Below the pieces are notes generated by a model, which was not told the origin of the DNA, ran no database searches, and worked only from the letters and a program-made list of their open reading frames with translations. From the NCBI RefSeq assembly GCF_019331795.1, contig NZ_JAHPZL010000007.1, forward strand, positions 90,597 through 154,596: a DNA stretch of 64,000 nt. The letters are read 5' to 3'. This stretch comes from Austwickia sp. TVS 96-490-7B (lineage in GTDB: Bacteria > Actinomycetota > Actinomycetes > Actinomycetales > Dermatophilaceae). Of the stretch, positions 30,785-37,555 are shown piece by piece. The first letter of the stretch is position 1. Each line of letters begins with the position of its first letter. The position numbers were made by a program, and so were the translations under genes.

Positions 30785-31518
30785 AAATCACTCTGAAGAT
30801 CTGGCGTCAGGCGGGCCCGCACGCCCAGGGGAAGCTGGCCACCTACCAGGTGGACAACATCTCGCCCGACATGTCCTTCCTCGAGATGCTCGACCAGCTC
30901 AATGAGGACCTGAACGCGCGTGGTGAAGAGCCAGTGGCTTTTGACAGCGACTGCCGTGAGGGCATCTGCGGCATGTGTGGCGTGGTCATCAACGGCCGCC
31001 CACACGGCAAGAAGGGTGTCACCACCTGTCAGCTGCACATGCGCAACTTCAACGATGGCGACGAGGTCATCGTGGAACCATGGCGGGCTACCGCCTTCCC
31101 GGTGTTGCGTGACCTGGTCGTCGACCGGAACGCGCTGGACCGGATCATCGGTGCGGGCGGCTTCATCTCCGCGAACACTGGTTCAGCACCTGAAGCGAAC
31201 TCACTTCCGGTCGGTAAAAACCTAGCGCTCCGTTCTTTCCATGCGGCTGAGTGTATCGGCTGTGGCGCGTGTGTCGCGGCCTGTCCGAACGCTGCCGCGA
31301 TGCTCTTCATGGGTGCCAAGGTGACGCATCTGGGTCTGTTGCCCCAGGGCCAGCCGGAGCGATGGACCAGGGTCAAGGCGATGGTCAAGCGGCACGACGC
31401 CGAGGGCTTTGGTGGCTGCACCAACGTCGGCGCCTGCGCCGATGCGTGCCCGAAGGAGATCCCGATGGACATGATTTCCTTCCTGAACAAAGACGTACGT
31501 CGGTCGTCTGTGCACTGA
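30781..31518 (+). CDS. sdhB: Succinate dehydrogenase/fumarate reductase iron-sulphur subunit
   Basis: A 245-residue subunit with three cluster sites: [16 protein letters not shown]...CQLH for 2Fe-2[14 protein letters not shown] and [16 protein letters not shown] for the 4Fe-4S and 3Fe-4S clusters. It passes electrons from FAD to the membrane haem/menaquinone. The start overlaps the sdhA stop, and a strong terminator follows. Confidence 0.97.
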
Positions 31519-32210: not shown

Positions 32211-32864
32211 GCCGCACTCATATGCCTGTCACGACGCCGCTGTGACGTCCTGTTCACCAGGATCATGGAAAGAAGATTCTTACCGAGCATCCGCTCCGAC
32301 CCTATAACCATCACGTATGCCCCTCACCGCTTGACGAGAGACATAGAGACACATCCACACACGGCCCGATCACTCCGCTTTGCGTAACCCACACTTAAAT
32401 CCACAAGAGCCGGGTAGCCAGAGAAACAAAGGCAAACTATATCATCTCCACTCCATCACAAACCTGGATTAGGCGTGCATCAAAATTTCACTGACTTCAT
32501 CCTTCAAAATGGTTCTACGGACTGTGATTTTGCCCACTTGGCATAACGCCGCTTCAAGTTCTAGACGAAGTCTTTGCTATGAGTTTGCTCATTTATGACT
32601 CTTGTTCGCCTATCTTATCGAATAAGGGGGTATTCACGGGCGGGTCGTCCGACTTCTAACCGCTCGTGAATAACGCCCAAAGAAGAAATAGGCAACCAAC
32701 GGAGTCTTCGCTTATCTAGTATTTCTAATATGCCCTAAAAGCAGAACGTGCAGTAAAAGCATTATTCGGTGCGGAAAAAGATGGTCCAGGCAAGCTTGCA
32801 GCAAAACAAGCTCTGTTCTAAAGAGATCAGTTACTATCAGAACTCATCAAGGAGAATGAAAGCC
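32211..32864. other. Low-GC stretch without a recognisable gene
   Basis: Base composition drops sharply here, marking entry into foreign DNA. It contains a deleted repeat copy (32626-32678) and only short frames; one reads KALFGAEKDGPGKLAAKQALF before a stop, which may be the tail of a lost gene. GGAG at 32851-32854 serves the first JmjC gene. Confidence 0.5.
32626..32678. repeat. Internally deleted copy of the 112-bp element
   Basis: GGGGGTATTCACG, a shortened left end, is joined directly to the right part (GGGTCGTCCGACTTCTAACC...CTCGTGAATAACGCCC) seen in the copies at 4634 and 35061. The central part is missing. Confidence 0.75.
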
Positions 32865-33904
32865 GTGAAACAGTTTCTTCCTGAAGGCGACATTGATGCA
32901 ATCAAATCGAATTGGGGTCGAAGTTTAACGCATTTTAGGTTAAATGAATCGCTAGGTTCATGGGATCAACAAACTGTCATCGATTTAATTTCAAGACCTT
33001 CTTATTTTGAAAAATTCCCTGTCTTTGCTCGCAACCATAAAGAGGAATTAAATGGGCGGCTTCACGATCTCTGTTCATGCATTGAAGCGATTAACTTAGG
33101 TTGTAGTCTCCAATTGCGAAATATAGAAGGAGCCCTAAGTGTATTTAACCCTATTAATTGCCTCGCTAGTGAGCTAGAAAAATTAGGTAAATTACCGCTC
33201 TCCACCATCACATTATTCTATACCCCCCCGGGAGAAAAAGCGCTTCCTATGCACTCAGGGCGTTATTCACGAGGCATTTCCAGGTCATTCTTGGCTACCA
33301 GCCAAGTCGATAGAGCTCGAGTCGGGTAATGACGGCAATGATATCGGGGAGTTCTGTGAGTCTGCCTCGATGTCTAACCCAATGATCTCAAAGCGGCCGA
33401 TGTTTTTATATATGTGTATGGCGACAGGTGTGTATCGATTGTTTCCCGGAGTGTAGGGGGTGGGTCGCTAACGCCTCGTGAATAACGCCCTCAGATGAGA
33501 CAGAAGTAATTGCGATACAAATATCTGGGAGTAAAATCTGGAAGATCGACGGTTATAGACACATATTAAAACTTTCACCAGGTCAAGGACTATATATTCC
33601 ATCCGATGTGATGCATGAAGTTGTTAGTTCTGCAGATGAAGCATCAATCAGCCTAGCCATAGCATTTAGCAATATCACGATTGGCGAAATTTTGACAACT
33701 GCACTCAAAACCCAAATTGGAGACGAATTGTACTATAAGCCTGTCTCGGCACGATTCACTCAAGGTGATCCTGAATCATTATTAAGCACATCGATATCAC
33801 AACATTTCCAAGAATGTTTTTCAGATACACATTTGATGAAGTCAGCTCTAAAATTAGCGCAATCAAAGTGGATTTATTCCGAAAATCTCATTCCAAAAAA
33901 CTGA
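32865..33904 (+). pseudogene. JmjC/cupin-like oxygenase 1, interrupted by a 233-bp element
   Basis: Removing the element at 33258-33490 and one TCA restores a single 267-codon frame, VKQFLPEGDIDAIKSN ... to ENLIPKN. The junction reads ALPMHS|DETEVIAIQISGSKIWKI, matching HFDENHVFTLQISGTKVWRF of the next protein. The insertion therefore separates H130 from D132, two of the three expected iron ligands; the third is H172 in DVMHEV. Translation now stops at 33329. The GTG at 32865 is preferred (GGAG 10 nt upstream). The intact ancestor would be an Fe(II)/2-oxoglutarate oxygenase of the JmjC/cupin_4/8 type. Low GC suggests recent transfer. Confidence 0.8.
33258..33490. repeat. 233-bp non-autonomous element inserted in JmjC gene 1
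   Basis: Ends GGGCGTTATTCACGAGGC and GCCTCGTGAATAACGCCC, flanked by TCA duplications (33255-33257, 33491-33493). Its right 112 bases are identical to 1-112. The minus strand of its left part could encode ELPDIIAVITRLELYRLGW before a stop, possibly the tail of the parent transposase. Confidence 0.93.
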
Positions 33905-33918
33905 AAGGAAATACCGAT

Positions 33919-35049
33919 ATGCTTCCTGAGTTAATTGAGTTCTCTAACCTCAATCTCAGTAACATTGTTGAATCATCAGAAGAATGGTGGGATAAGTCTG
34001 TAGTTTTATGGAAAAAGTGCGCTTCCCCCCAAATATTTAATTACAAACTATTCGAAAGTCTTCTCAACATGCCAGTTCCATATAATGAAAAAAATATAAG
34101 ACTAGCATCATGGCCCAGAACTGATAATTCAATTAATAATGATATAGTAGTACTTAGTCCTCGTGAACTATTGTTAAATATATCTTATGGTAAATCAATT
34201 GTACTTAATCATATGGACCGATATTTATATCAAAATCATGAGCTTATGGAATTATATAGAGATCTTTCAATGCACACAGGTACTGTAGCCCATGCAGGGC
34301 AGCTTGCCGCTTTTTATACTCCTGAGTCATCACAAGCATTTGGTAGTCATTTTGATGAAAATCACGTATTCACCTTGCAGATAAGTGGTACTAAAGTATG
34401 GAGATTCGGCGTAGAAGATGCTATAAACGTAAATTTATCAAGTGGTGATGTCTTGTATGTTCCGTACGGATTACACCATGAAGTTTTGACTACAGCGGAG
34501 CCAAGTCTCTCAGTGGCAATTATCCTTGAAGCACCAAGCCGTTCTTGGTTCAATGGTGAAATGGCTGCCAGAACTGCATATTTATCAGCTTCAGAAGGAG
34601 TAAAAGGAAGTATAGGTTCTGACTGGATGCATCTGCCTTCAGGGTTTAATGAAATCCCAATTTGCCAAATTGAACCCAAATTATTACACCAAACACAAAA
34701 CTCTCTAATAGGAGAAATATGGGAGGGGTTGCCATGTAATTATTATGATTTTTTCGCAGATTCATATTCAAGATCTAGCTCTCAATCAAGTCTATTTACA
34801 AAATATAGTTTAAGATTAGGCAATCGTGCTGATATTTATTCAATAAATGAAGATTGGTACATCAGGTCTCCTGGGCTCAGTCCGGTGTTGTTGCCAAATC
34901 GCTACAAACAAGTCTGGAAATCGCTTGCAGTTGATAAAAAGGCGACATTGCAGTGCAGTCTCAATGATTCTCATGAATTAAATAAGTTATTAAATCATTT
35001 GCGCATTGGCGCCTACTTGTATGCGGATGGAGAATACTATGATAAATAG
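33919..35049 (+). CDS. JmjC/cupin-like oxygenase 2 (intact)
   Basis: A 376-residue protein with GAAAGGAA 8 nt before the ATG. The double-stranded beta-helix core is visible: H144-x-D146 in FGSHFDENHV, LQISGTKVWRF, then GDVLYVPYGLHHEV with the distal His (H186 or H187). This is the metal triad of JmjC/cupin_4-type Fe(II)/2-oxoglutarate hydroxylases, some of which hydroxylate protein side chains (ribosomal oxygenases, FIH). Helical parts lie on both sides. It is the only undamaged JmjC gene of the three and lies upstream of a repeat peptide gene, so peptide hydroxylation is the likely role. Strongly AT-rich compared with the host. Confidence 0.78.
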   Translation: MLPELIEFSNLNLSNIVESSEEWWDKSVVLWKKCASPQIFNYKLFESLLNMPVPYNEKNIRLASWPRTDNSINNDIVVLSPRELLLNISYGKSIVLNHMDRYLYQNHELMELYRDLSMHTGTVAHAGQLAAFYTPESSQAFGSHFDENHVFTLQISGTKVWRFGVEDAINVNLSSGDVLYVPYGLHHEVLTTAEPSLSVAIILEAPSRSWFNGEMAARTAYLSASEGVKGSIGSDWMHLPSGFNEIPICQIEPKLLHQTQNSLIGEIWEGLPCNYYDFFADSYSRSSSQSSLFTKYSLRLGNRADIYSINEDWYIRSPGLSPVLLPNRYKQVWKSLAVDKKATLQCSLNDSHELNKLLNHLRIGAYLYADGEYYDK

Positions 35050-35050
35050 T

Positions 35051-36052
35051 ATGGAGATCAGGGCGTTATTCACGGGGGTTTTACCCCCTTAAGGAGAGTT
35101 AGAAAACCTGCAGGTCACAGGCCCTTGCAGCGGGCGGGTCGTCCGACTTCTAACCGCTCGTGAATAACACCCTCAGTAAAATTTCAGCCAATTTTGAGTC
35201 GAGTCGCATGTCACACTTTGCTATTGATCCGTCATTTATAAATAGCGTCATTGAAGAGTTTAGTCTCGATGCAAAGGAAGGCTTATATGATTTCTTGAAA
35301 AACAGAATGCGCGAGCTACTTTATTCAAAGAGGTAAGTAGTGTTGATGTACAAGAAGTTGTTAATGTGCGAGATTTAAGTTGGCAGGATATCACTTCGGG
35401 CACATTGGTTATTGAAGATATAGGTAAATGCAGTATGCAAATTCAAGAAGTTGCTGGCTGGCTTCATCATAATCTAGGTTATGCAAATGATGCTGGGTCG
35501 GTCGCTTTGACTATCACGGCTCCTAATCACACGGTCCCTCTTCATTACGATGGCTGCGAAGTCTTAACTTTACAGCTCACCGGTGAAAAAAAATGGTCAG
35601 TTGGCCGCGCCTATGAAGTTGATTGGCCCGATAGAGCCCTTTTTCTAAACTCACGTGATTCTGGGGCGCGCGATGGTAATCAACCGCCGAAGATATCACT
35701 TCCAGCGAATTTTTATTCCATCAATGAACTTGATGAATTTATTTTGACTGCAGGGTTTGGGGTGGCATTGCCGAGGGGGTGGTGGCACAGTACTAAAGCG
35801 GGAAATCCCAATAGAACAGGCGTAAGCGCGGGATTAATATTCAAGATTCCATCGCTATCCCTAGCTCAAAGAATCACACCTTTAATCGGCGATGAGTTAT
35901 CCAGGATTCCTAATTTCAGACGCCCATATTTGACGGGTGGAAAAAGTCGACACGGCTTGTTAGATGGAGGTGATGCTGCATCATTGATTCAAGTCGTCTC
36001 TAACATTGCTAATTCTTTGTGTTATGAGACGTCTATAGAGTTGTCTGAGTAG
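35051..36052 (+). pseudogene. JmjC/cupin-like oxygenase 3, broken by an element and a frameshift
   Basis: Removing the element at 35061-35172 with one TCA gives MEISKISANFESSRMSHF in frame from the ATG at 35051, one base after the stop of gene 2. Near 35311-35330 the frame must shift by -1 to pass from KNRMRELLY to FKEVSSVDVQEVVNVRDL. The core follows: VPLHYDG (HxD), LTLQLTGEKKWSV and PRGWWHST for the distal His. A shorter product from the GTG at 35366 (228 aa) would keep the whole metal triad and might still be made. Related to, but clearly diverged from, genes 1 and 2. Confidence 0.72.
35061..35172. repeat. 112-bp MITE-like element in JmjC gene 3
   Basis: Same length and nearly the same sequence as 4634-4745, with one change in the right terminal repeat (AACACCC for AACGCCC). 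TCA duplications flank it (35058-35060, 35173-35175). It sits after codon 3 of the third JmjC gene. Confidence 0.9.
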
Positions 36053-36081
36053 ATCAGAGATGATTAGAAGGAGTCTAGTAG

Positions 36082-36222
36082 ATGACTAGCAATATTGCGG
36101 CGAACCGGAACAACAACTGGGGTTCTGAGGTTGGTGCGGCGAACCGGAACAACAACTGGGGTTCTGAGGTTGGTGCGGCGAACCGGAACAACAACTGGGG
36201 TTCTGAGGTGGTGCATCCCTAG
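36082..36222 (+). CDS. Repeat peptide, candidate RiPP precursor (46 aa)
   Basis: The frame encodes MTSNI, two full copies of AANRNNNWGSEVG and a third ending AANRNNNWGSEVVHP. AAGGAG at 36068-36073 is 8 nt from the ATG, an excellent ribosome-binding site. The three DNA units are identical, so they are kept or were copied recently. There is almost no leader. It follows three JmjC-type oxygenase genes and precedes a hairpin and an MFS exporter, the usual order maturase, precursor, exporter. The Asn-rich NRNNNW core could be hydroxylated. No known precursor family is recognised; the RiPP reading is inference. Confidence 0.65.
   Translation: MTSNIAANRNNNWGSEVGAANRNNNWGSEVGAANRNNNWGSEVVHP
36097..36210 (+). 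repeat. Three tandem 39-bp coding repeats
   Basis: Units at 36097-36135, 36136-36174 and 36175-36210 (the last ends one codon early). Units 1 and 2 are identical over 39 bases; unit 3 is identical for 35 bases, then differs in the last base of its Val codon. Each encodes AANRNNNWGSEV(G). Confidence 0.95.
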
Positions 36223-36259
36223 CCACTGGTATATTTGTCAGATTTTCATGCAAGATATG

Positions 36260-36310
36260 ACTAGGCCCGGAGATACCAGCGAATTGTTCGCTGGTATCTC
36301 CGGGCCTAGT
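36260..36310 (+). terminator. Very strong hairpin between peptide gene and exporter
   Basis: Left arm 36260-36283 and right arm 36287-36310 are perfectly complementary over 24 bp (arms begin ACTAGGCCCGGAG), with a TTG loop, followed by TGTACTTTAAT. It would stop most transcripts after the peptide gene, so that little mRNA reaches the exporter, or protect the 3' end of the peptide mRNA. Confidence 0.85.
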
Positions 36311-36346
36311 TGTACTTTAATACTGATTCTTGCTGTGGAGGATTTG

Positions 36347-37555
36347 GTGGAGGGTTTTTTGGTTTTGCGCCAGCATGCCGCGTTGAGGTATCTACTGCTG
36401 GCTCAAGTGATCACTAATTTCGGTAACGGCTTAGCGCCAGTGGCGGTGGTGTTCTATGTGATGGATCGCAACCTTGGTCCTGAAATTCTTGGCATAGCCG
36501 GAGGGATCTATGGGTGCTGTCTTGCCGTCATGCTGCTCATAGGCGGTCATATAGGAGATTCATATGACCGCTTAACGGTGGCTTCTCGTCTCAGCCTAGT
36601 TCGAGGAATTACTCAAGGCGGTATTGCCTTATATCTTCTCTGTGTCGCGGATGGGACTTTCGGTCTTTATCTGGGGAACGGGATCCTGGGAGCTGCTGCG
36701 GGTTTGTCCATTCCATCCTCGCAGGGTGCAATGCGAGAGGTTCTCCCTCGCGAGCAGATTCATATAGGAGTCAAATTACGTTCAATTCTCCAAGAAGGTT
36801 CTCGTGTCGCTGGGACGGGGTTGGCTGGGCCGTTGTGTATTTTGGTGGGAGCCCCGGCAGTTCTCTTCGTGGATGCGCTCACGTTTTTGATCGCCTGCGT
36901 GGGATTTTGGTTAGCATCGCAGCGCAGGGTTGATACGGTTCAGCGGCGAGAGGGTGCCACCATTCGCCTGTCGGACGGTTTTCATGAAATCCGGAAAACG
37001 ACATGGCTGATGGTGCTCATGATTCAGAGCGTCATCACTCAGCTGTGCTTTTCAGGTATTGAGTCAGGGCTCCTGCCGGTCTGGGTAGGGTCCCGCTACG
37101 GAGTTGAAGTCTGGTCGGTGACCAGTGCGCTGATGATGGCGGGGAGTATTGTCGCTGGGGTGGCGCTCCTCAGGTTTGACACGCGCCCATCGCCAGCAAG
37201 TGCTTGCCTGTGGCTTGGTTTAGGATGTGCCTCCGCTCTCCTTTTCGTCCCGCCATTACCAGTCTGGGTGATTTGGGCATGTGCGTTGTCGCAAGGAGTC
37301 CTGGTGCAAATCTACAACATCCAGTGGGATATTCTTGTCATGGCCCGCATTCCATCCGATCGCTTGAGCGGTGTGATTGGTTCTTATCAAAGTGTGAACT
37401 TCATGGGGCGTCCTGCTGGATTGTTTGCTTTTTCTGTAGCCATAGGGAGTGTGGGGCAGGCTCGATGGCTTGTCATCGCTTCCCTGGTGAGCGCTTTAGT
37501 CCCACTGTGTGCTGCATTGTATCTTTGGGGGAAGAGCCAGGTGGCAAAGAGGTAG
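36347..37555 (+). CDS. MFS transporter, likely peptide exporter of the JmjC cluster
   Basis: A 402-residue protein with about 12 membrane segments (from LRYLLLAQVITNFGNGLAPVAVVFYVMD; GGHIGDSYDRLTVASR is the A-motif). The GTG at 36347 has GGAGG 5 nt upstream; an extension back over the peptide gene is an artefact. It resembles antibiotic-efflux MFS proteins. Its composition is closer to the host than that of the JmjC genes, so the cluster may be a mosaic. Product export or immunity is inferred from position. Confidence 0.82.
   Translation: MEGFLVLRQHAALRYLLLAQVITNFGNGLAPVAVVFYVMDRNLGPEILGIAGGIYGCCLAVMLLIGGHIGDSYDRLTVASRLSLVRGITQGGIALYLLCVADGTFGLYLGNGILGAAAGLSIPSSQGAMREVLPREQIHIGVKLRSILQEGSRVAGTGLAGPLCILVGAPAVLFVDALTFLIACVGFWLASQRRVDTVQRREGATIRLSDGFHEIRKTTWLMVLMIQSVITQLCFSGIESGLLPVWVGSRYGVEVWSVTSALMMAGSIVAGVALLRFDTRPSPASACLWLGLGCASALLFVPPLPVWVIWACALSQGVLVQIYNIQWDILVMARIPSDRLSGVIGSYQSVNFMGRPAGLFAFSVAIGSVGQARWLVIASLVSALVPLCAALYLWGKSQVAKR

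Follow-up and report, generated by a model that had tools for sequence, protein, structure and literature searches.

The stretch of DNA analysed here (the window) comprises 64,000 nucleotides of Austwickia sp. TVS 96-490-7B (contig NZ_JAHPZL010000007.1, positions 90,597 to 154,596) and carries a locus of JmjC-type oxygenase genes, a short repeat peptide and an exporter-like gene. The locus was found in approximately 6.15 kb between a gene which we take, from reading its sequence, to be sdhB (open reading frame (ORF) ending at 31518) and a SIMPL/DUF541 gene (PF04402). This island contains three JmjC genes (JmjC1, JmjC2 and JmjC3), an ORF of 46 residues, a hairpin and a gene of the major facilitator superfamily (MFS), with all genes on the plus strand. 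The GC content was 35–47% across the JmjC genes versus 60–66% outside the island. The other three genomes of the genus encode these flanking proteins 197, 197 and 2015 bp apart. Because these three sister species lack the island at the same site, it is an insertion in this lineage. The 2015-bp gap (L301:434-1951) holds an ORF whose sequence, the sole basis for the name, suggests a purine permease.

The ORF of 46 amino acids (36082..36222, plus strand), identified as an open frame and by repeat scan, encodes a precursor-like peptide consisting of MTSNI and three units of AANRNNNWGSEV(G). Its full layout is MTSNI-AANRNNNWGSEVG-AANRNNNWGSEVG-AANRNNNWGSEV-VHP with units of 13 residues, and the three 39-bp copies of the array showed identities of 100, 100 and 95%. 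A Shine-Dalgarno sequence AAGGAG (36068..36073, plus strand) is located 8 nucleotides ahead of the ATG. The initial annotation had described exactly such an ORF with three units behind a strong ribosome-binding site, and this description holds. Using an internal repeat score of at least 8 as cutoff, 4 of 624 ORFs (30–220 amino acids, both strands of the window) were found, all of them frames of the peptide array, while the strict six-base Shine-Dalgarno sequence was found for 1 of 152 ATG ORFs of 30–120 amino acids in the window, the peptide ORF. The array is confirmed as real and beyond chance in the window. Starting 37 bases past the peptide stop and ahead of the MFS gene, a perfect 24-bp inverted repeat (36260..36310, no strand assigned) forms a predicted hairpin with a folding energy of -54.1 kcal/mol (z -13), scored as terminator-like in a terminator scan and was present in a single copy in the genome. 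The MFS gene (36335..37555, plus strand; start GTG at 36335 or 36347 by eye) encodes an exporter-like protein with a match to PF07690 (5.9e-20) and one to TIGR00900 (3.7e-30), the latter below the cutoff of that model. Hairpin and MFS gene were thus both present as originally annotated.

Among the three JmjC genes, JmjC2 (33919..35049, plus strand) is intact and encodes a PF08007 oxygenase of 376 amino acids (Pfam 4.3e-14; 52.6 bits at a cutoff of 22). The residues H144, D146, K159 and H187 were invariant in the nine aligned rows of JmjC2 and eight relatives, all eight of which come from repeat-peptide or RiPP-like contexts (RiPP, ribosomally synthesized and post-translationally modified peptide). 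The HxD...H motif of such enzymes binds iron and the conserved lysine 2-oxoglutarate (2OG). The structural model of JmjC2 reached a mean predicted local distance difference test (pLDDT) value of 59 and was good only in the core, approximately residues 80–205. A fold search with this model gave NO66 and YxbC as best matches, and a profile of JmjC2 with 24 relatives of the first clade described below matched NO66 (5e-25), MINA, YxbC and, weakly, YcfD chains. FIH hydroxylates asparagine within repeats and had been named for comparison in the initial annotation. In the fold search it ranked below NO66, YxbC, MINA and YcfD, and it was missing from the profile matches; an FIH-like origin was rejected on these grounds, and the nearest solved folds are the ribosomal oxygenases and YxbC. 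A first-clade relative (L065) yielded a model with a pLDDT of 93 and a predicted template modelling score of 0.86, which matched NO66 at a template modelling (TM) score of 0.74. The C-terminus of this model contains strands at 308–312, 315–319 and 324–328 and helices at 329–340, 347–350 and 356–368. According to PMC12710340, such a strand3-helix3 order is required of RiPP recognition elements (RREs), and certain eukaryotic RRE-JmjC (PF08007) fusions have their closest bacterial homologs in RiPP-like contexts. For L065 the order, which would make a candidate C-terminal winged-helix or RRE-like domain, is that of a model, and the corresponding region of JmjC2 was mostly predicted with a pLDDT below 50.

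The other two JmjC genes carry insertions or a frame change. JmjC1 is open before (32865..33257, plus strand) and after (33491..33904, plus strand) an insert of 233 bp (~33258..33490, no strand assigned), which was found by repeat scan and resembles a miniature inverted-repeat transposable element (MITE), with inverted ends GGGCGTTATTCACG and TCA on both sides. The insert splits the HxD motif, leaving the first histidine near the end of the part before it and the aspartate, the 2OG-binding lysine and the second histidine in the part after it. Neither piece matched PF08007 in the Pfam scan; the part before the insert had no Pfam match alone, and a blastp comparison with the other JmjC rows returned no match at E 0.01. 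The part after the insert was 44% identical to residues 145–202 of JmjC2 in the own-genome search. Genome-wide, the 233-bp element gave 53 matches, including a single further copy of nearly full length (95%) and numerous copies of one or the other end. As several pairs of these ends lie approximately 860 bp apart, the pattern fits a MITE that arose from a longer insertion sequence. A second MITE-like element of 112 bp (~35061..35172, no strand assigned, repeat scan) is located at the 5' end of JmjC3. A further one at ~32622-32678 shares its ends with both. JmjC3 (35173..36052, plus strand; PF08007 1.8e-9) contains a frame change near 35330, for which a sequencing error is possible, and is open from 35366 to 36052; this ORF matched PF08007 with 37.6 bits (cutoff 22) and by eye retains HxD...K...H. 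Of the three HxD...H genes originally described, JmjC2 is therefore intact and JmjC3 keeps the motif, while the motif of JmjC1 is split and the frame of JmjC3 changed. The assumption of three working enzymes does not stand, since JmjC1 and JmjC3 are both damaged in this strain. With this damage, the product may be only partly modified here, or the locus may be decaying.

Using JmjC2 as query at E 1e-8, matches were found in 2 of 396 genomes of the order and 9 of 394 genomes of the class, with its own genome counted in each. The four strongest places of the family outside the own genome each carried a DGTDG-type repeat ORF just 5' of the JmjC gene. A profile of this first clade, which we call DGTD, identified 229 relatives in genome_contigs, and all counts given here cover 80 of these (L065–L144), named as Nocardioides, Aeromicrobium, Marmoricola, Micropruina, Propioniciclava, Microlunatus and others. 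An Asp-rich DGTDG tandem-repeat ORF was found directly 5' of the PF08007 gene in all of the 80 loci but one (79; 75 by a revised script and 4, L090, L095, L141 and L144, by eye; 70 of 80 with a strict filter). The exception, L117, has 56 bp of upstream sequence. The repeat ORF ends a median of 4 bp ahead of the JmjC gene, and a similar N-terminal part was observed, with a loose leader expression matching 72 of 75 repeat ORFs. As a control, ten windows of 700 bp elsewhere were taken per first-clade locus: a repeat ORF was found in 6 of 695 of these versus 70 of 77 windows just upstream, a comparison which covers the first clade alone. The cores of this clade consist of aspartate (.38), glycine (.26), threonine (.16), alanine (.09) and serine (.08), with arginine at.005.

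The second clade, called GAD, encodes proteins of approximately 410 amino acids. A total of 122 of 186 family genomes matched at E 1e-20, 3 of them through the first clade only. From 125 listed places 121 were sampled (L180–L300), the four omitted being first-clade members. By repeat score, 92 of the 121 loci carried a DGGADGG-type repeat ORF upstream of the JmjC gene; this number excludes L277, which contains a run of masked bases and was scored by the script as the 93rd. The scored frame was Asp-rich in 86 of the 93. Of the 28 loci missed by the script, 7 have less than 300 bp of upstream sequence, with positions taken approximately. Repeat words, counted by a method designed after the scoring, occurred in 104 of the 121 loci, and the 17 misses comprise 6 with less than 300 bp upstream, the masked L277 and 10 without repeat words. 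Glycine (43%), alanine (22%) and aspartate (20%) dominate the cores, arginine falls outside the twelve commonest residues, and among the frequent residues aspartate alone has a side chain that is plainly oxidisable. A negative control drawn from further JmjC loci of the family failed, as those loci had repeat ORFs as well; the 55 loci concerned overlap the 121 and were not added. A Suc_Fer-like gene (PF06999) followed the JmjC gene in both first-clade loci and in the single second-clade locus tested. Of the repeat-cassette peptides scanned against Pfam and NCBIfam, none reached a curated cutoff. The two clades formed separate groups in a tree of 27 rows (support 100/99 and 96/100), and JmjC3 grouped, on a long branch, with the JmjC protein of a YcaO cluster (L063; support 88/90). 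There, YcaO, nitroreductase and JmjC genes stand in a row (L063:4271-7857), a possible azole-type RiPP cluster as judged from its gene content.

Further relatives were detected in 8 plasmid records, and the neighbourhoods of 6 were examined, the others being from Klebsiella and one more Pantoea; JmjC3 had no match in plasmid records. In Streptomyces NBC_00435 and NBC_00503 the relatives occur with two cupins, an MFS gene and an M13 peptidase. An unannotated, conserved ORF of 31 amino acids ending in ATSYY-NIQ precedes these cupins (L030:4273-4368, L031:4197-4292) and looks like a precursor peptide from its sequence. Streptomyces NBC_01006 carries two cupins with YcaO and TfuA-like genes; a short peptide ORF lies beside such a group on a Streptomyces plasmid (L032:4343-9076). 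Two Pantoea plasmids contain two cupins, an MFS gene and a gene of the arginase family, which matched PF00491 in the plasmid where it was tested; no precursor peptide was recognised in these two records. Near the Dolichospermum relative, a short ORF was found that holds both a Gly-Gly site and a short repeat.

Taking these observations together, we lean towards a RiPP-like locus, putative and possibly decaying in this strain, in which JmjC2 hydroxylates the repeat units, asparagine being the likeliest residue, and the product is exported; this cautious preference extends to the explanation as a whole, horizontal gain of the locus included. A short precursor-like gene lies beside a candidate modifying enzyme, as is typical of RiPP clusters, and a leader peptide is lacking. 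Because the first unit is preceded by just five residues, the locus was filed as RiPP-like and not as RiPP. The 46-residue peptide would serve as a precursor carrying several cores and next to no leader. JmjC2, a presumed Fe(II)/2OG oxygenase of the ribosomal-oxygenase fold, would bind it and hydroxylate side chains within every NRNNNW unit, asparagine being the most probable target and arginine the second. JmjC1 and JmjC3 may originally have helped in this hydroxylation, and their steps may be lacking in this strain. A host protease would then cut between the units and the MFS protein export the product. We infer that the cell produces the peptide, modifies and cleaves it and exports the product, and the choice of the altered residue is likewise an inference. 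The main, indirect support for peptide modification is the position of relatives beside repeat-peptide ORFs. The objection that JmjC homologs might never neighbour such peptides is contradicted for repeat peptides in general (79 of 80 and 92 of 121 loci versus 6 of 695 control windows). The proposal that JmjC enzymes act on the repeat peptide gains from this association, while the exact NRNNNW-peptide/JmjC pair rests on one genome: a second NRNNNW repeat peptide was found neither in the own genome nor in genus genomes, plasmids or viral contigs. In viral_contigs the NRNNNWG pattern occurred in 20 stretches with one match apiece, which was taken as chance.

The choice of residue deserves comparison with its alternatives. 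β-Hydroxylation of aspartate and of asparagine is like chemistry. The preference for asparagine stems from the sister clades, whose cores offer chiefly aspartate; being composed mostly of glycine, alanine and aspartate, in the first clade also of threonine and serine, they point by analogy to Asp/Asn chemistry. The same RiPP logic with arginine as target seems unlikely, though it has a basis: YcfD hydroxylates an arginine of ribosomal protein L16, L16 arginine hydroxylases were among the profile and fold matches of JmjC2, each NRNNNW unit contains one arginine, and BipG of biphenomycin biosynthesis acts on ornithine. Against it stands the scarcity of arginine in the cores of both clades. Each unit likewise contains one tryptophan, so that the JmjC enzymes might cross-link, by oxidative macrocyclisation via Trp or Asn for example, rather than hydroxylate; with Asp/Gly/Ala cores in the sister clades that offer no aromatic partner, we regard this as very improbable.

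Two further explanations dispense with modification of the peptide. The island could be a decaying import, in which the array is a functionless slippage product and the JmjC genes are remnants. The MITE-like element in JmjC1, the second one together with the frame change in JmjC3, and the presence of the island at this site in one of four species fit such decay; as JmjC2, the peptide with its Shine-Dalgarno sequence, the hairpin and the MFS frame are all intact, it is judged distinctly improbable. Modification of a ribosomal or other host protein, with the peptide as an unmodified neighbour, would agree with the fold which JmjC2 shares with NO66, MINA and YcfD. It is given little credence in view of the repeat-peptide ORFs adjoining 79 of 80 and 92 of 121 relatives and of several further relatives in RiPP-like clusters.

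A number of findings weigh against hydroxylation of the repeat peptide by JmjC2. Both JmjC1 and JmjC3 are damaged, and inspection by eye of the ORFs from sdhB to the SIMPL gene revealed no protease. The peptide was found at one place in the own genome and in one of four genus genomes, its own, and a search of 72,556 plasmid records at E 10 gave no match. The search of genome_contigs for close relatives of JmjC2 returned 12 pattern matches and zero relatives. In the tree of 27 rows JmjC2 remained unplaced on a long branch, and the tree lends no support to a putative common inheritance of the peptide habit by JmjC2 and the repeat-clade JmjC proteins. The peptide lies 3' of the enzymes without leader, versus 5' leader-bearing ORFs in the sister clades, and its near-identical repeats permit no synonymous-change test of coding. 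Approximately a tenth of the second-clade loci having upstream sequence show no such repeat. In two of these, L282 and L288, an acidic ORF without repeats was observed just before the JmjC gene. The window itself represents a single orphan, partly damaged case for which the idea is plausible, backed by the association at the level of the class.

More tentatively, at least three JmjC lineages may be dedicated modifiers of multi-core repeat peptides in actinomycetes, making poly-β-hydroxylated Asp/Asn peptides which are possibly metal-binding; the window would then hold a member of Asn type that is poor in leader and has three enzymes and a dedicated exporter. If so, a gene pair of many actinomycetes would yield hydroxylated repeat peptides, and the substrates of many bacterial JmjC enzymes of the ribosomal-oxygenase fold would become testable via co-expression with their neighbours. 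It would also show a path by which ribosomal oxygenases were turned to the tailoring of peptides, and repeats could serve as a scaffold for programmed hydroxylation. The locus hints at a little-described bacterial route to oxidised peptides.

JmjC-type RiPP enzymes as such are already known. According to PMC12707348 and PMC12257519, BipG is a JmjC protein acting as γ-ornithine hydroxylase in biphenomycin biosynthesis, and PbsQ is a cupin hydroxylase of ornithine in a related pathway. With such hydroxylases published in RiPP clusters, the designation as a new RiPP class in the initial annotation was too strong. As proposed here, a JmjC-type 2OG oxygenase hydroxylates a precursor side chain in a RiPP cluster, and an MFS gene belongs to the pbs cluster. 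Unlike here, the target is ornithine made by arginase, the clusters carry a multinuclear non-heme iron-dependent oxidative enzyme (MNIO) and a B12 radical S-adenosylmethionine enzyme, and the accessible accounts of biphenomycin-type clusters describe no multi-core repeat array. Genes for an MNIO, a B12 radical S-adenosylmethionine enzyme or arginase were not recognised between sdhB and SIMPL, where JmjC, peptide and MFS genes were. FIH shares the JmjC fold, and FIH entries with ankyrin-repeat peptides were among the fold matches of JmjC2. NO66, MINA and YcfD, all PF08007 proteins, agree with JmjC2 in fold and in the spacing of HxD...H and lysine and were, along with YxbC, its best solved matches; their substrates are ribosomal proteins, whereas the JmjC2 gene sits by a repeat peptide and an exporter. 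For cassettes of JmjC and repeat peptide of such form, no description was found in the literature searched, mostly without subscription papers, which is not proof of novelty; the clade names DGTD and GAD were coined in this analysis as no published name was found. These cassettes differ from the window locus in their Asp-rich cores, an N-terminal leader-like part, the position of the peptide 5' of a single JmjC gene and, in the three loci tested, a Suc_Fer-like gene instead of an MFS gene next to it. The window locus, with its Asn-rich peptide located 3' and no Suc_Fer-like gene, is accordingly not counted as a DGTD or GAD cassette. What it has in common with them is a PF08007 enzyme adjoining a tandem-repeat peptide ORF.

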